DNA of 64,000 nucleotides from Streptomyces adelaidensis. Its GTDB lineage: Bacteria; Actinomycetota; Actinomycetes; Streptomycetales; Streptomycetaceae. Made by a program: the position numbers and the translations under genes. The stretch spans positions 1-64,000 of the forward strand of contig NZ_JAEMUX010000012.1 of assembly GCF_016598475.1 (NCBI RefSeq). The letters run 5' to 3'. Below the pieces are notes generated by a model, which had not been told where the DNA came from, searched no databases, and saw only the letters and a list, made by a program, of their open reading frames with translations. Below are positions 11,436 through 49,788 of this stretch, piece by piece; the stretch's first letter is position 1, and each line of letters starts with the position of its first letter.

Positions 11436-11856
11436 GGCAGACGAGTCGGGCTGTACGCCGGGTTCTGTCGCCCGGCTGCCTCGCGGCGGCCGGGGAGACG
11501 GCCATCCATCTAGGGTCGGCGTTGCCGCCGGCCTCGTGCGGTCTACCCGCGGACTCGGGCGGGCAGCCCTCGAACGTCCGCGCAGGGTCGCTCTTCTTGC
11601 GAAGAGGCGGCCCCTCTTGACCTTGCTCCGGGTGGGGTTTACCTAGCTGCCCAGGTCGCCCTGGGCACTGGTGGTCTCTTACACCACCGTTTCACCCTTA
11701 CCCAGCGCCGGAGCGCTGGGCGGTCTGTTTTCTGTGGCACTGTCCCGCGGGTCACCCCGGGTGGCCGTTAGCCATCACCCTGCCCTGTGGAGCCCGGACG
11801 TTCCTCGGGGAGATCCACAAGAACCTCCACGCGGCCGTCCGCCCGGCTCGTCTGCC
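11436..11856 (-). ncRNA. rnpB: RNase P RNA, bacterial type A
   Basis: The minus strand shows the RNase P RNA core. The 5' segment contains GAACGTCCGGGCTCCACAGG and a GGCTAACGGCC element. Universal ACAGAAA and GGTAAGGGTGAAACGGT segments follow, and near the 3' end comes GACAGAACCCGGCGTACAG. The ends are set by helix P1, GGCAGACGAGCCGGGC (11856-11841) pairing with the segment at 11451-11436 with one mismatch, giving about 421 nucleotides. A -10 box TAGCAT (11871-11866) sits at the right distance. It is the catalytic RNA that matures tRNA 5' ends. Its first 89 nucleotides overlap the end of the EamA transporter gene. Confidence 0.95.
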
Positions 11857-44112: not shown

Positions 44113-44757
44113 ATGCCTGCGGAAGTCAAGGTGGAAGCCGGTAGCGCGCGACAGGCCCCGCGTCCGGACTCGCCGCCCCTCACGGAGCGGCAGGAGGCCC
44201 GTCGGCGCCGCATCCTGCACGCGAGCGCCCAGCTGGCCAGCCGGGGCGGTTTCGACGCCGTCCAGATGCGCGAGGTCGCCGAGTCCTCCCAGGTCGCCCT
44301 CGGCACCCTCTACCGCTACTTCCCCTCCAAGATCCATCTGCTGGTCGCCACCATGCAGGCGCAGCTGGAGCACATGCACGGCATGCTCCGCAAGAAGCCG
44401 CCGACCGGCGACACGGCGGCCGAGCGGGTCGCCGAGACCCTGATGCGCGCGTTCCGCGCCCTCCAGCGCGAGCCCCACCTCGCCGACGCCATGGTCCGCG
44501 CCCTCACCTTCGCCGACCGCAGCGTCAGCCCCGAGGTCGACCAGGTCTCCCACCAGACCACCGCGATCATCCTCGACGCCATGGGCCTGGACCACCCCAG
44601 CGCCGAACAGCTCTCCGCCGTCCGCGTCATCGAACACACCTGGCACTCGGCCCTGGTCACCTGGCTCTCGGGCCGCGCCTCCATCGCCCAGGTGAAGATC
44701 GACATCGAGACGGTGTGCCGGCTCATCGACCTGACCGCGCCCGAGCAGAAGAAGTGA
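44113..44757 (+). CDS. TetR-family regulator, KstR-like
   Basis: The 214-residue protein has the TetR helix-turn-helix in the form ERQEARRRRILHASAQLASRGGFDAVQMREVAESSQVALGTLYRYFPSK. From memory this is very close to the mycobacterial cholesterol regulator KstR over the same segment, and the ligand domain also has ALTFADRSVSPEVDQV and RVIEHTWHSALVTWLSGRAS. KstR represses lipid and steroid catabolism genes until a CoA thioester binds. Its own upstream region carries a KstR-type site. Calling it KstR-like is well supported; the ligand here is not known. Confidence 0.85.
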   Translation: MPAEVKVEAGSARQAPRPDSPPLTERQEARRRRILHASAQLASRGGFDAVQMREVAESSQVALGTLYRYFPSKIHLLVATMQAQLEHMHGMLRKKPPTGDTAAERVAETLMRAFRALQREPHLADAMVRALTFADRSVSPEVDQVSHQTTAIILDAMGLDHPSAEQLSAVRVIEHTWHSALVTWLSGRASIAQVKIDIETVCRLIDLTAPEQKK

Positions 44758-44759
44758 TC

Positions 44760-44990
44760 AAAAAAATAGGGCCCCGAACAGACGTCGGGGCCTACGAAGG
44801 GACCTACGAGACGGGTTTCCCTGTACCGGTATGACTGCTCCGGAACAGGTGCCGAGGGTCACCGTCAGGCCCTGTCCTGCGACCTTCCGGCCTCTCAGCC
44901 CGACCGTCGACGTCGGCACCGGCGGATCTTCAACCTCTCGCCCATGTCGGCTACTCCGGTCGACTCCCTCTACTCGCCTCGTAGGCCTAT
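44760..44990 (-). ncRNA. Candidate structured small RNA with intrinsic terminator
   Basis: On the minus strand a -10 box TACTCT (45001-44996) is followed by about 230 non-coding bases ending in a textbook terminator: GGCCCCGA-7-TCGGGGCC (44769-44793) and seven T residues (44766-44760). The 5' part GGCCTACGAG can pair with either of two 3' segments, CTCGTAGGTCC or TTCGTAGGCC, so the ends close a long stem. It precedes no minus-strand gene, arguing against a riboswitch. A 6S- or Ms1-like RNA is a possibility I cannot verify. Confidence 0.55.
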
Positions 44991-45039
44991 CTCCAGAGTA
45001 GGACAAGAAGAACGGATGCAACACCCCAAATAGGATTTT

Positions 45040-45903
45040 TTATCCCACGATTTCCAGCCCGCTCCAGCCGCGCCCGATCGCCGCCTCCCCCGCCCACTGG
45101 TCCAGCAGCCGCCTGGCCTCGCTCTCCGGGGCCGCCAGGCAGACGCGCTGGGCGCCGGCGTGGACACTCCGCTCCTTGTGGATGGTGCCCTCACTGCAGC
45201 AGGAGCAGTGGAAGACCACGCTGCTGGCGGGTTCGGCGCCGAAGGCGTGGTCGGTGAAGAGGTCGACGAGCGCTTCCAGGTCGGCGGGGTCGCCCGCGGT
45301 GACCGTCACCTGGAGCGTGGGCAGGTCGGACGGTTCGAAGAGGAGGAGTTCGTCGAAGACGGGGTAGGTGCTGCCGTCGATGACGCGTTCGCCGTTCGGC
45401 TCGCCGTCGTGCAGGACGATCTCGCCGTAGCGGCGACCGCCGGACACGGGTACGTTCACGACGCGCCCTCGGGTGGGGCAGAGACGTTCGATCCAGACGA
45501 CCTCGCGTTCGCCGCCGGTGTCCAGGCGGACGCAGGCGTGACCGAAGCCGCCCTCGATCTCGCCCTCCCCGGCCGGGAGTTCGATGCCGAAGCCGGCCCA
45601 GGCGTCACGCGCCGTCGCCCAGTCGCGACGGATCGTGGCCGCGATGCCGAGGTTCCAGTACGCGGGGTCGCCCTCGCCGCGCGGTGCGCGGGCGGCGGCC
45701 TGGACGCCGAGTTCGTACGCCTTCTCCCAGTTGCGCAGGAACTTGTGGCCGAGCGCGGCGTCGTACCACCACTCGGCGCTCGACGTCTCGTCCGGGTAAT
45801 GGGCGAGTACCTGCTCGTAGAGGTCGGCGGCGCGCTGCCACTCCTCCGCGTCCCAGGCCGCGTACGCCTGCTCGATCAGTTGCCTGGCCTCGGACTTCCG
45901 CAC
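45040..45903 (-). CDS. Tetratricopeptide-repeat protein with C-terminal cysteine cluster
   Basis: The 287-residue protein opens with TPR-like helices (about 1-105: AYAAWDAEEWQRAADLYEQVLAHYP, AYWNLGIAATIRRDWATARDAW), followed by a beta-rich domain and a C-terminal cluster FHCSCCSEGTIHKERS. Such proteins are common and unassigned in Streptomyces. The start is GTG or equivalent at 45903. It is upstream of the small RNA on the same strand. Its stop codon lies in GGGATAAAAAATCC, a possible weak terminator. Confidence 0.72.
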   Translation of the reverse strand: MRKSEARQLIEQAYAAWDAEEWQRAADLYEQVLAHYPDETSSAEWWYDAALGHKFLRNWEKAYELGVQAAARAPRGEGDPAYWNLGIAATIRRDWATARDAWAGFGIELPAGEGEIEGGFGHACVRLDTGGEREVVWIERLCPTRGRVVNVPVSGGRRYGEIVLHDGEPNGERVIDGSTYPVFDELLLFEPSDLPTLQVTVTAGDPADLEALVDLFTDHAFGAEPASSVVFHCSCCSEGTIHKERSVHAGAQRVCLAAPESEARRLLDQWAGEAAIGRGWSGLEIVG

Positions 45904-49489: not shown

Positions 49490-49544
49490 GGCCCGAACCT
49501 ATCCCGGTGCACAGCCGGCCCTCAGGCGGTTCGCTACCGGCAGG

Positions 49545-49550
49545 TAGAGT
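49545..49550 (+). promoter_or_regulatory. Probable -10 box of the B12 operon
   Basis: TAGAGT lies just before the cobalamin riboswitch. The matching -35 is weak. Confidence 0.4.
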
Positions 49551-49552
49551 GA

Positions 49553-49661
49553 CCGGGTCGTCATCACACCCGTACAGGGGGAAGCCGGTGCAAATCCGGC
49601 GCTGACCCGCAACCGTGAGCCGCCCCGGCAAGGGAGCGGCGAGCCGGACTGCCCGGTACGG
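49553..49661 (+). promoter_or_regulatory. Cobalamin (B12) riboswitch
   Basis: The conserved core is intact: GGGGAAGCC, the B12 box GGTGCAAATCCGGCGC, CTGACCCGCAACCGTGA, and the closing GAGCCGGACTGCC. A GC-rich expression platform follows (49675-49775), with hairpins TCACCGGCGG/CCGCCGGTG and GGAGCCG/CGGCTCC, the last able to mask the region before the start codon. Binding of adenosylcobalamin should shut off the downstream B12-uptake operon. Confidence 0.93.
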
Positions 49662-49788
49662 AACAGTGACCGGCTCGCGTCACCGGCGGCCCGCCGGTGT
49701 CACGGCACCGTCGAGGAATACGGAGCCGAGCCGCCCGGCGCTTCGCCGTGCCGCCCGGCTCCCTGTCAGGGAGAGGCAGCCGCCGATC

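Follow-up and report, generated by a model that had tools for sequence, protein, structure and literature searches.

Riboswitches are usually regarded as leaders of the genes they control. The TPP riboswitch (THI element, RF00059) has a P1–P5 layout with a CUGAGA junction and an ACCUGAU...CCGGCGNAGGGA arm, features that recur in most copies of the RNA described here. Some aptamers depart from the leader arrangement: a handful are not placed before related genes, and the sections of PMC2258182 drawn on here suggest trans action or recent orphaning for them. In antisense riboswitches, as presented in the portion of PMC9943018 used here, an aptamer with its own promoter faces the 3' end of a gene, the examples being SAM at ubiG in Clostridium acetobutylicum and cobalamin at pocR in Listeria. 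Streptomyces also encodes the small RNA Ms1, whose synteny pairs a HAD hydrolase with an oxidoreductase and whose S. coelicolor copy (scr3559) lies between sco3558, a HAD hydrolase gene, and sco3559 (sections of PMC9130861). By RIP-seq, scr3559 and scr0792 were found on RNA polymerase in S. coelicolor (sections of PMC11077062).

Here, we describe a family of structured RNAs represented by one copy in a 64,000-nt stretch of Streptomyces adelaidensis DNA, the whole of which we call the window, and compare its fold, promoter region, gene context and sensor core with these systems. The RNA family appears to be new; the TPP aptamer and out-of-place aptamers were already known. We found no description of the family among the papers listed by full-text searches, judging by titles and the openings of abstracts. 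As far as their main texts go, PMC9943018 contains no occurrence of Streptomyces, and a survey of Streptomyces small RNAs (PMC3765725) contains none of TPP or thiamine.

A structured RNA gene and its promoter region

An initial annotation of the window had proposed a new or 6S/Ms1-like small RNA with a promoter box, a structured non-coding body, two alternative pairings closing its ends and a T-tract terminator. The locus has the following features:

44113..44757, plus strand: convergent TetR-family gene of the KstR type (PF17925, TetR_C_20, and PF00440)
44760..44792, minus strand: intrinsic terminator, a stem at 44792-44770 followed by the T-run CTATTTTTTT
44762..44988, minus strand: RNA gene, some 227 nt long, with its ends deduced from the promoter region and terminator
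44995..45000, minus strand: -10 region TACTCT, its position conserved in 86 homologues
45016..45021, minus strand: -35 region TTGCAT, with T at -36 in 0.90 of 86 homologues
45036..45041, minus strand: UP-element-like A-tract AAAAAA (RNA strand), which runs over the stop codon of the TPR-like gene upstream
45040..45903, minus strand: gene for a TPR-like protein, upstream of the RNA (TPR_2 below the curated cut-off)

The structured RNA lies on the minus strand, from about 44988 to 44762. Folded as 231 nt, this strand reaches -107.1 kcal/mol (z -2.97), a stability matched by 0 of 200 shuffles, and its best BLAST homologue, in another Streptomyces, is 89% identical (E 1.9e-63). A coding gene was rejected as an alternative: the 88-aa ORF of the window has no Pfam match, 30 of 86 homologues keep its frame open over the length of the RNA, and RNA lengths in the family spread over all three classes modulo 3. 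The stable fold relative to shuffles, the existence of homologues and the absence of a conserved short protein frame bear out the proposed non-coding gene. It was also correct that no gene lies behind the RNA on its own strand, since the KstR-type TetR gene, which has KstR among its closest solved structures (~1e-38), converges on it. A relative of the TPR-like gene lies upstream of the RNA in 9 of 90 Streptomyces loci.

Homologues support a promoter region belonging to the RNA itself. The -10 region, the -35 region and the A-tract are conserved in position across 86 Streptomyces homologues, with T at 0.74, A at 0.63 and T at 0.62 at positions -15, -14 and -10, and with A at frequencies of 0.76-0.90 at positions -56 to -53 from P1. 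An A5 tract is present in 57 of the 86, as against 0 of 7681 other 35-nt windows, within a search range chosen after looking at the upstream sequences. The promoter box of the initial annotation nevertheless stands only in part, as a sigma-70 scan found 0 promoters at the RNA locus; the spacer between the -35 and -10 regions of the window is short (15 nt).

The terminator of the window is real, with a stem of eight pairs, seven of them G-C, before its T-run, and it is the stronger of two terminator-like sites between 43000 and 47000 (shuffles mean 0.9). It is a property of this copy: a separate terminator hairpin occurs in 3 of 86 homologues, compared with 0-2 in each of five shuffled sets, and we rejected it as a trait of the family. 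Homologues instead carry a short imperfect T-rich stretch after P1, with T frequencies of 0.77 (fourth base) and 0.70 (fifth base), from which we infer termination at P1.

Two further structured RNAs were matched elsewhere in the window, a cobalamin riboswitch aptamer at 49521-49671 on the plus strand (34.2 bits against a cut-off of 31.5) and a class A RNase P RNA at 11438-11850 on the minus strand (283.9 bits).

The homologues share the aptamer fold of the TPP riboswitch

Aligned side by side, the homologues display the TPP motifs CUGAGAGG and ACCUGAUCCGG...AAURCCGGCGNAGGGA, and the RNAalifold consensus of 47 copies contains P1, P2, P3, P3a, P4 and P5. These elements, together with a second pairing partner of P1, map to the window as follows:

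44972..44985, minus strand: P1, 5' strand CCUACGAGGCGAGU, from covariation
44946..44960, minus strand: P3 insert, 5' part ACCGGAGUAGCCGAC, conserved in Streptomyces and with 0 mismatches to the consensus in the window
44903..44918, minus strand: P3 insert, 3' part, with 1 mismatch to the consensus in the window
44891..44898, minus strand: J3/2 motif CUGAGAGG of the TPP aptamer, intact in the window and invariant in the 47 rows of alignment A1
44818..44850, minus strand: P4/P5 arm of the TPP aptamer, altered in the window according to the alignment and a motif test
44803..44816, minus strand: P1, 3' strand ACCCGUCUCGUAGG, from the consensus alignment and covariation
44789..44798, minus strand: alternative partner strand P1' UUCGUAGGCC, which shares bases with the 5' arm of the terminator hairpin

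We examined covariation in a set of 62 copies that includes the Actinomadura family, Catenulispora and Embleya. In this set 93.3% of cells are paired and 30 of 51 pairs show two-sided changes, a result equalled by 0 of 500 shuffles, in an alignment fitted to the model and sharing 11 of its 62 rows with the model alignment A1. One P1 pair is A-U in 31, G-C in 25 and G-U in 6 of the 62 copies. Covariation thus supports the P1-P5 aptamer fold, and the homologues share the fold of the TPP riboswitch aptamer with the addition of an insert in P3 and a long P1.

Rfam does not recover this relationship at its own threshold. In the RNA interval of the window there was no gathering-level match, hits up to E 10 were all at chance level, and the TPP model (RF00059) gave no match to the window copy even at E 10. 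The TPP gathering score of 54.3 bits was reached in 0 of 20 homologous loci. A permissive TPP search given 14 of these 20 (L004, L037, L052, L082, L085 and L088, which include three without a TPP core, were left out) returned matches in 14 of 14, on the right strand, at 28-39 bits (E 3e-4 to 0.13), and the best-scoring alignment hides 57 nt of the P3 insert. The scores probably fall below the cut-off on account of the P3 insert and the odd P1. The RNA is not filed as a TPP riboswitch, given the Rfam cut-off, the gene context and the part of the core that the window copy lacks. It differs from that riboswitch in the long P1 that joins its ends, the P3 insert, a promoter of its own, the lack of a constant gene behind it, its sub-threshold Rfam score and a core that is lost or changed in several lineages, with P4/P5 altered in the window.

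Within the P3 arm (window 44903-44960), an internal loop, GGAGUAGC / GUCGA, is conserved as seen by eye in the alignment. Its G-A, A-G and U-U mismatches would stack with short pairs on either side, and the loop may serve to bind a protein or to make a tertiary contact. Outside Streptomyces the P3 insert shows no conservation, and the effector may therefore differ between groups.

The multi-helix junction of the consensus is not the rod with one large central bubble expected of 6S or Ms1 RNA, and the other comparisons also went against the 6S/Ms1 suggestion. A cmscan of 401 bases found no 6S model at E up to 10, and the RNA neighbours KstR-type TetR and TPR-like genes, not the HAD hydrolase and oxidoreductase of Ms1. 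A HAD-hydrolase intergenic stretch exists elsewhere in the same genome (contig C317:19537-19912, L270). This stretch is matched in 9 of 12 other genomes of the genus and 0 of 8 genomes of the order that were searched, has no match longer than 10 bases in common with the RNA and, judged by its neighbour gene, is a candidate Ms1 of the strain. A 6S/Ms1-like RNA that binds RNA polymerase would agree with the length, the closed ends and the promoter with its A-tract, the length and closing stem being similar in 6S RNA and in Ms1/scr3559 as described in the sections of PMC9130861 used, and with the polymerase-bound scr3559 and scr0792 of S. coelicolor (sections of PMC11077062). Set against the missing 6S match, the TPP junction with its covariation, the different neighbours and genome position, and the Ms1-type HAD-hydrolase locus elsewhere, we regard this reading as very improbable.

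Distribution of the family

At an E threshold of 0.001, BLAST gave matches in 112 of 295 Streptomyces genomes, among which 90 loci with longer matches were picked by eye; 86 of these gave a clean core and are the base of every count out of 86, and alignment A1 holds 47 of the 86. Model R1, built on the long form with the window copy among its 47 sequences, matches the window at 44793-44988 with 156 bits. With R1, 100 of the 295 genomes yield one long-form copy each, scoring 72.6-217.5 bits and comprising the 90 loci picked by eye and ten further loci, and weaker matches of at most 45.7 bits occur in all 295.

Outside Streptomyces, the sole long form in a class-wide draw of 296 genomes was in G519. 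In the family of that genome (f17, which includes Actinomadura and is here called the Actinomadura family), 21 of 200 genomes carry the long form at 72.1 bits or more, one of them twice. The score gap is narrower there than in Streptomyces, the lowest long form scoring 72.1 bits and the next matches 64.8, 60.2 and 58.6. One copy of this family, L133, has an upstream sequence identical to that of L179, from Actinomadura sp. HBU206391.

The P1 pattern was also found in at least 119 stretches of a named collection, from Streptomyces (among them S. scabiei, S. viridochromogenes and S. lydicus), Actinacidiphila and Embleya, and also from Catenulispora, Actinomadura and Actinoallomurus. S. coelicolor, S. 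avermitilis and S. venezuelae are not among the titles of these stretches, among the matches listed. The model matches 117 of the at least 119 (79 of 80 and 38 of 39), two of the 79 being cut at the end of the locus; one stretch, L254, has only a 100-nt match of 64.8 bits. The two without a model match, L237 and L171, are a Phycisphaerales assembly and an uncultured-bacterium assembly, in which the P1 pattern is a chance occurrence or an assembly mix-up. Of the named stretches, the core counts below include the 77 that are uncut among the first 80, six of which were too short for the neighbour count. A virus-borne element was considered and rejected, as the P1 pattern gave 0 hits in viral_contigs.

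No constant gene lies behind the RNA

TPP riboswitches are recognized in part by being placed before a gene, classically one of thiamin metabolism, and this RNA family is not. The next downstream gene is on the opposite strand at 85 of 100 Streptomyces loci (81 of the 90 picked by eye and 4 of the further ten) and at 51 of 71 named loci, compared with 1 of 24 ordinary TPP aptamers. Among 27 ordinary TPP-type hits, 24 could be checked, three being at contig edges, and 23 of the 24 precede a same-strand gene. The strand counts here and below come from a crude codon-position gene caller of our own, which may have produced some false same-strand genes or placed their starts too early.

The neighbours themselves vary. 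At 62 of 90 Streptomyces loci a KstR-like gene converges on the RNA, the remaining loci having other neighbours, and upstream an aldehyde dehydrogenase is found in 51 of the 90 and a ferredoxin in 53. Since neighbours differ among loci, the position of the RNA varies while the RNA and its promoter persist. At 2 of 20 loci scanned, a cobalamin riboswitch aptamer (L010 1825-1883, L022 1272-1345) lies close upstream of the RNA gene and divergent from it.

This arrangement bears on whether the RNA could be a cis riboswitch of a downstream gene, or of an unannotated short ORF, in at least some groups. At 13 of 20 loci of the Actinomadura family a same-strand gene comes next, with CBS protein, RtcB, FtsH, KdpD and phosphoribosyltransferase genes among them, and at the other 7 the next gene lies on the opposite strand; a ratio of 13:7 is close to that expected without any constraint and differs from the 23:1 of ordinary TPP aptamers. 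Same-strand genes also come next at 6 of the last ten Streptomyces loci, five of one kind, and lie within 500 nt at 15 of 71 named loci, and in one Streptomyces group an epimerase-like gene follows the RNA at related loci. The genes that follow are nonetheless unlike one another, the RNA contains no conserved reading frame, and the prevalence of opposite-strand neighbours is foreign to ordinary TPP aptamers. Cis control is possible in single cases such as L150, where a CBS-domain gene lies close behind the RNA; as an account of the RNA it is improbable.

The convergent gene raises another alternative, in which the RNA is an antisense riboswitch: TPP would choose between a stop at P1 or the terminator and read-through into the 3' end of the convergent gene, silencing its mRNA. 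As in the SAM/ubiG and cobalamin/pocR precedents (PMC9943018, in the portion used), an aptamer with its own promoter here faces the 3' end of a gene, and that gene is of the KstR type at most Streptomyces loci. The two alternative end pairings claimed by the initial annotation are both present in the window, where P1' shares bases with the terminator hairpin and competes with P1 (duplex energies -20.5 kcal/mol for the alternative and -23.6 for P1); the window's terminator and this competition would fit transcription control into kstR. The second pairing is, however, not a trait of the family. A second complement of P1 at two or fewer mismatches is found at 10 of 86 loci, the window included, and a general alternative-pairing switch was rejected on this count. 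Neither a constant convergent target nor a conserved terminator/antiterminator platform was found: the convergent gene differs at other loci, the Actinomadura family has a convergent gene at only 7 of 20, separate terminators are as rare as noted above, and the TPP core has been lost in several lineages. The described antisense riboswitches differ from this RNA in these respects, as far as the portion of PMC9943018 used goes, and in that portion TPP is not over-represented among antisense-placed riboswitches (83/9,766, P 1.00). We rank antisense control second and cis control third because the window's terminator and its P1/P1' competition are not family traits, and consider the antisense reading unlikely, though less so than cis control.

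The sensor core is kept in most copies and lost or changed in several lineages

The TPP core, tested as CTGAGAGG plus the P4/P5 motif with at most three mismatches, is kept in 148 of 167 copies (151 distinct sequences). The family as a whole carries the RF00059 core motifs, and the window copy, one of 19 that fail the test, falls short of them: J5/4 'CG' has become UA (44824-44825), J4/5 'AU' has become UU, and the loop is enlarged. The CG step of J5/4 has a role in pyrophosphate binding.

Three divergent copies (L177, L187, L218) were set aside from the 19, leaving 16 changed copies. Eleven of these lack both motifs and form one group without P4/P5 and another without any TPP core. The other five (L001, L003, L160, L169, L216) keep J3/2 and have an altered P4/P5; they are the window copy, S. 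scabiei, S. stelliscabiei and two more, and on their sequence they might still bind a ligand. Core-less versions of the RNA include L081 and L082 (121-nt core stretch), as well as L080, L083, L087, L088, L314 and L315, some much shortened and suited to probing the function of the P3 arm.

Changes to the core leave the remainder of the RNA largely intact. In the three core motifs, mean mismatches are 2.44-3.44 in changed copies, 0.03-0.26 in intact copies and 3.45-3.94 in shuffled sequences. For P1 and the P3 insert they are 0.56-1.12 in the 16 changed copies as against 0.46-1.31 in 78 intact ones; because both the query and the model used to find changed copies include P1 and the P3 insert, copies without those parts would be missed. 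One exception, L087, has 3 and 6 mismatches in the two parts of the P3 insert. The A5 tract is retained in 7 of the 11 core-less and 4 of the 5 altered copies. On an rpoB tree of 30 chosen genomes with a midpoint root, in which G169 and G286, both without both motifs, were entered as unknown, we count at least four changes from clear losses only and at least six with the altered copies included. The natural reading is that TPP sensing forms one module and that P1 together with the P3 arm forms a second, the one that selection keeps in Streptomyces.

The same data weigh on the possibility that the RNA is a relic, a riboswitch orphaned by rearrangement and now decaying. Recent orphaning has been offered for the handful of out-of-place aptamers (PMC2258182, in the sections used), and failure of the core test by the window copy and 18 others might be taken as decay. 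The core is nevertheless kept in the great majority of copies, covariation and the promoter region are conserved across many species, and even the changed copies retain P1, mostly the P3 insert, and in 11 of 16 cases the A5 tract, and we consider a relic highly unlikely.

DevR/DosR-like boxes precede the RNA in the Actinomadura family

In the Actinomadura family, a GGGACCTTCGTCCC-like palindrome resembling the DevR/DosR box lies within 100 nt upstream of the RNA in 15 of 20 copies. With this pattern, which was fixed once the upstream sequences had been read, other windows from these loci gave 5 hits in 515 and shuffled sequences a mean of 0.15 of 20. The boxed loci are among L105 and L132-L150. 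Such boxes were found upstream of the RNA in 0 of 86 Streptomyces homologues, and their presence as a trait of Streptomyces copies was rejected.

Ten neighbours picked by eye at these loci comprise a phosphoribosyltransferase, an M50-CBS protease, RtcB, a CBS protein, KdpD-Usp, FtsH, a CapA-like protein, Hsp20, an MmyB-like regulator and a WhiB protein, several of which are presumably of the kinds found in the DosR regulon of mycobacteria. Boxes and neighbours suggest, at the level of sequence, that the RNA belongs to a hypoxia/dormancy regulon in the Actinomadura family. DrrS/MTS1338 is a DosR-controlled small RNA of mycobacteria. If the Actinomadura-family boxes function, the two would be alike as non-coding RNAs under a dormancy regulator, a likeness drawn by description only; DrrS/MTS1338 is not known to contain a TPP aptamer.

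Discussion

The RNA family described here has its own promoter region, a long P1 bringing its two ends together and an extra domain in P3, and most copies have the TPP fold and core. No constant gene lies behind it, and its core has been lost or changed in several lineages that keep P1 and mostly the P3 insert. On balance, and by a narrow judgement, we favor the explanation that this is a free-standing RNA derived from a TPP riboswitch, with a P3 arm that acts in trans and is gated by TPP where the aptamer survives. The out-of-place aptamers of PMC2258182, in the sections used, are likewise not upstream of genes for their cognate metabolite, and trans action was suggested for them too; this RNA differs from them in being a family with a conserved promoter, an extra domain and covariation.

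In the model of a free-standing RNA, a strong promoter would yield a closed RNA of about 190-230 nt ending just after P1 at the T-rich stretch, or at the added hairpin in the window. TPP binding to intact copies would lock the P2/P3/P4 junction and alter the presentation of the P3 arm or the stability of the RNA. In Streptomyces the P3 arm would be the effector, acting in trans on some RNA or protein. Because its P4/P5 arm is altered, the window RNA is probably unresponsive to TPP, and its action would be constitutive. Synthesis of the RNA in the Actinomadura family would probably be turned on by a DevR/DosR-type regulator. A broader proposal, which we advance tentatively and hold to be less probable than the free-standing RNA itself, is that an aptamer has turned into its own gene: a widespread actinobacterial small RNA that reports TPP status in trans by way of an added P3 domain, is wired to the dormancy regulator DevR/DosR in the Actinomadura family and has lost its sensor several times in Streptomyces, leaving a constitutive regulator.

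The family shows that the Rfam cut-off misses a TPP-derived family, and its conservation together with a promoter of its own makes trans-acting riboswitches directly testable. It offers natural sensor-bearing and sensor-less versions of one RNA, and it may tie vitamin-B1 status to dormancy.
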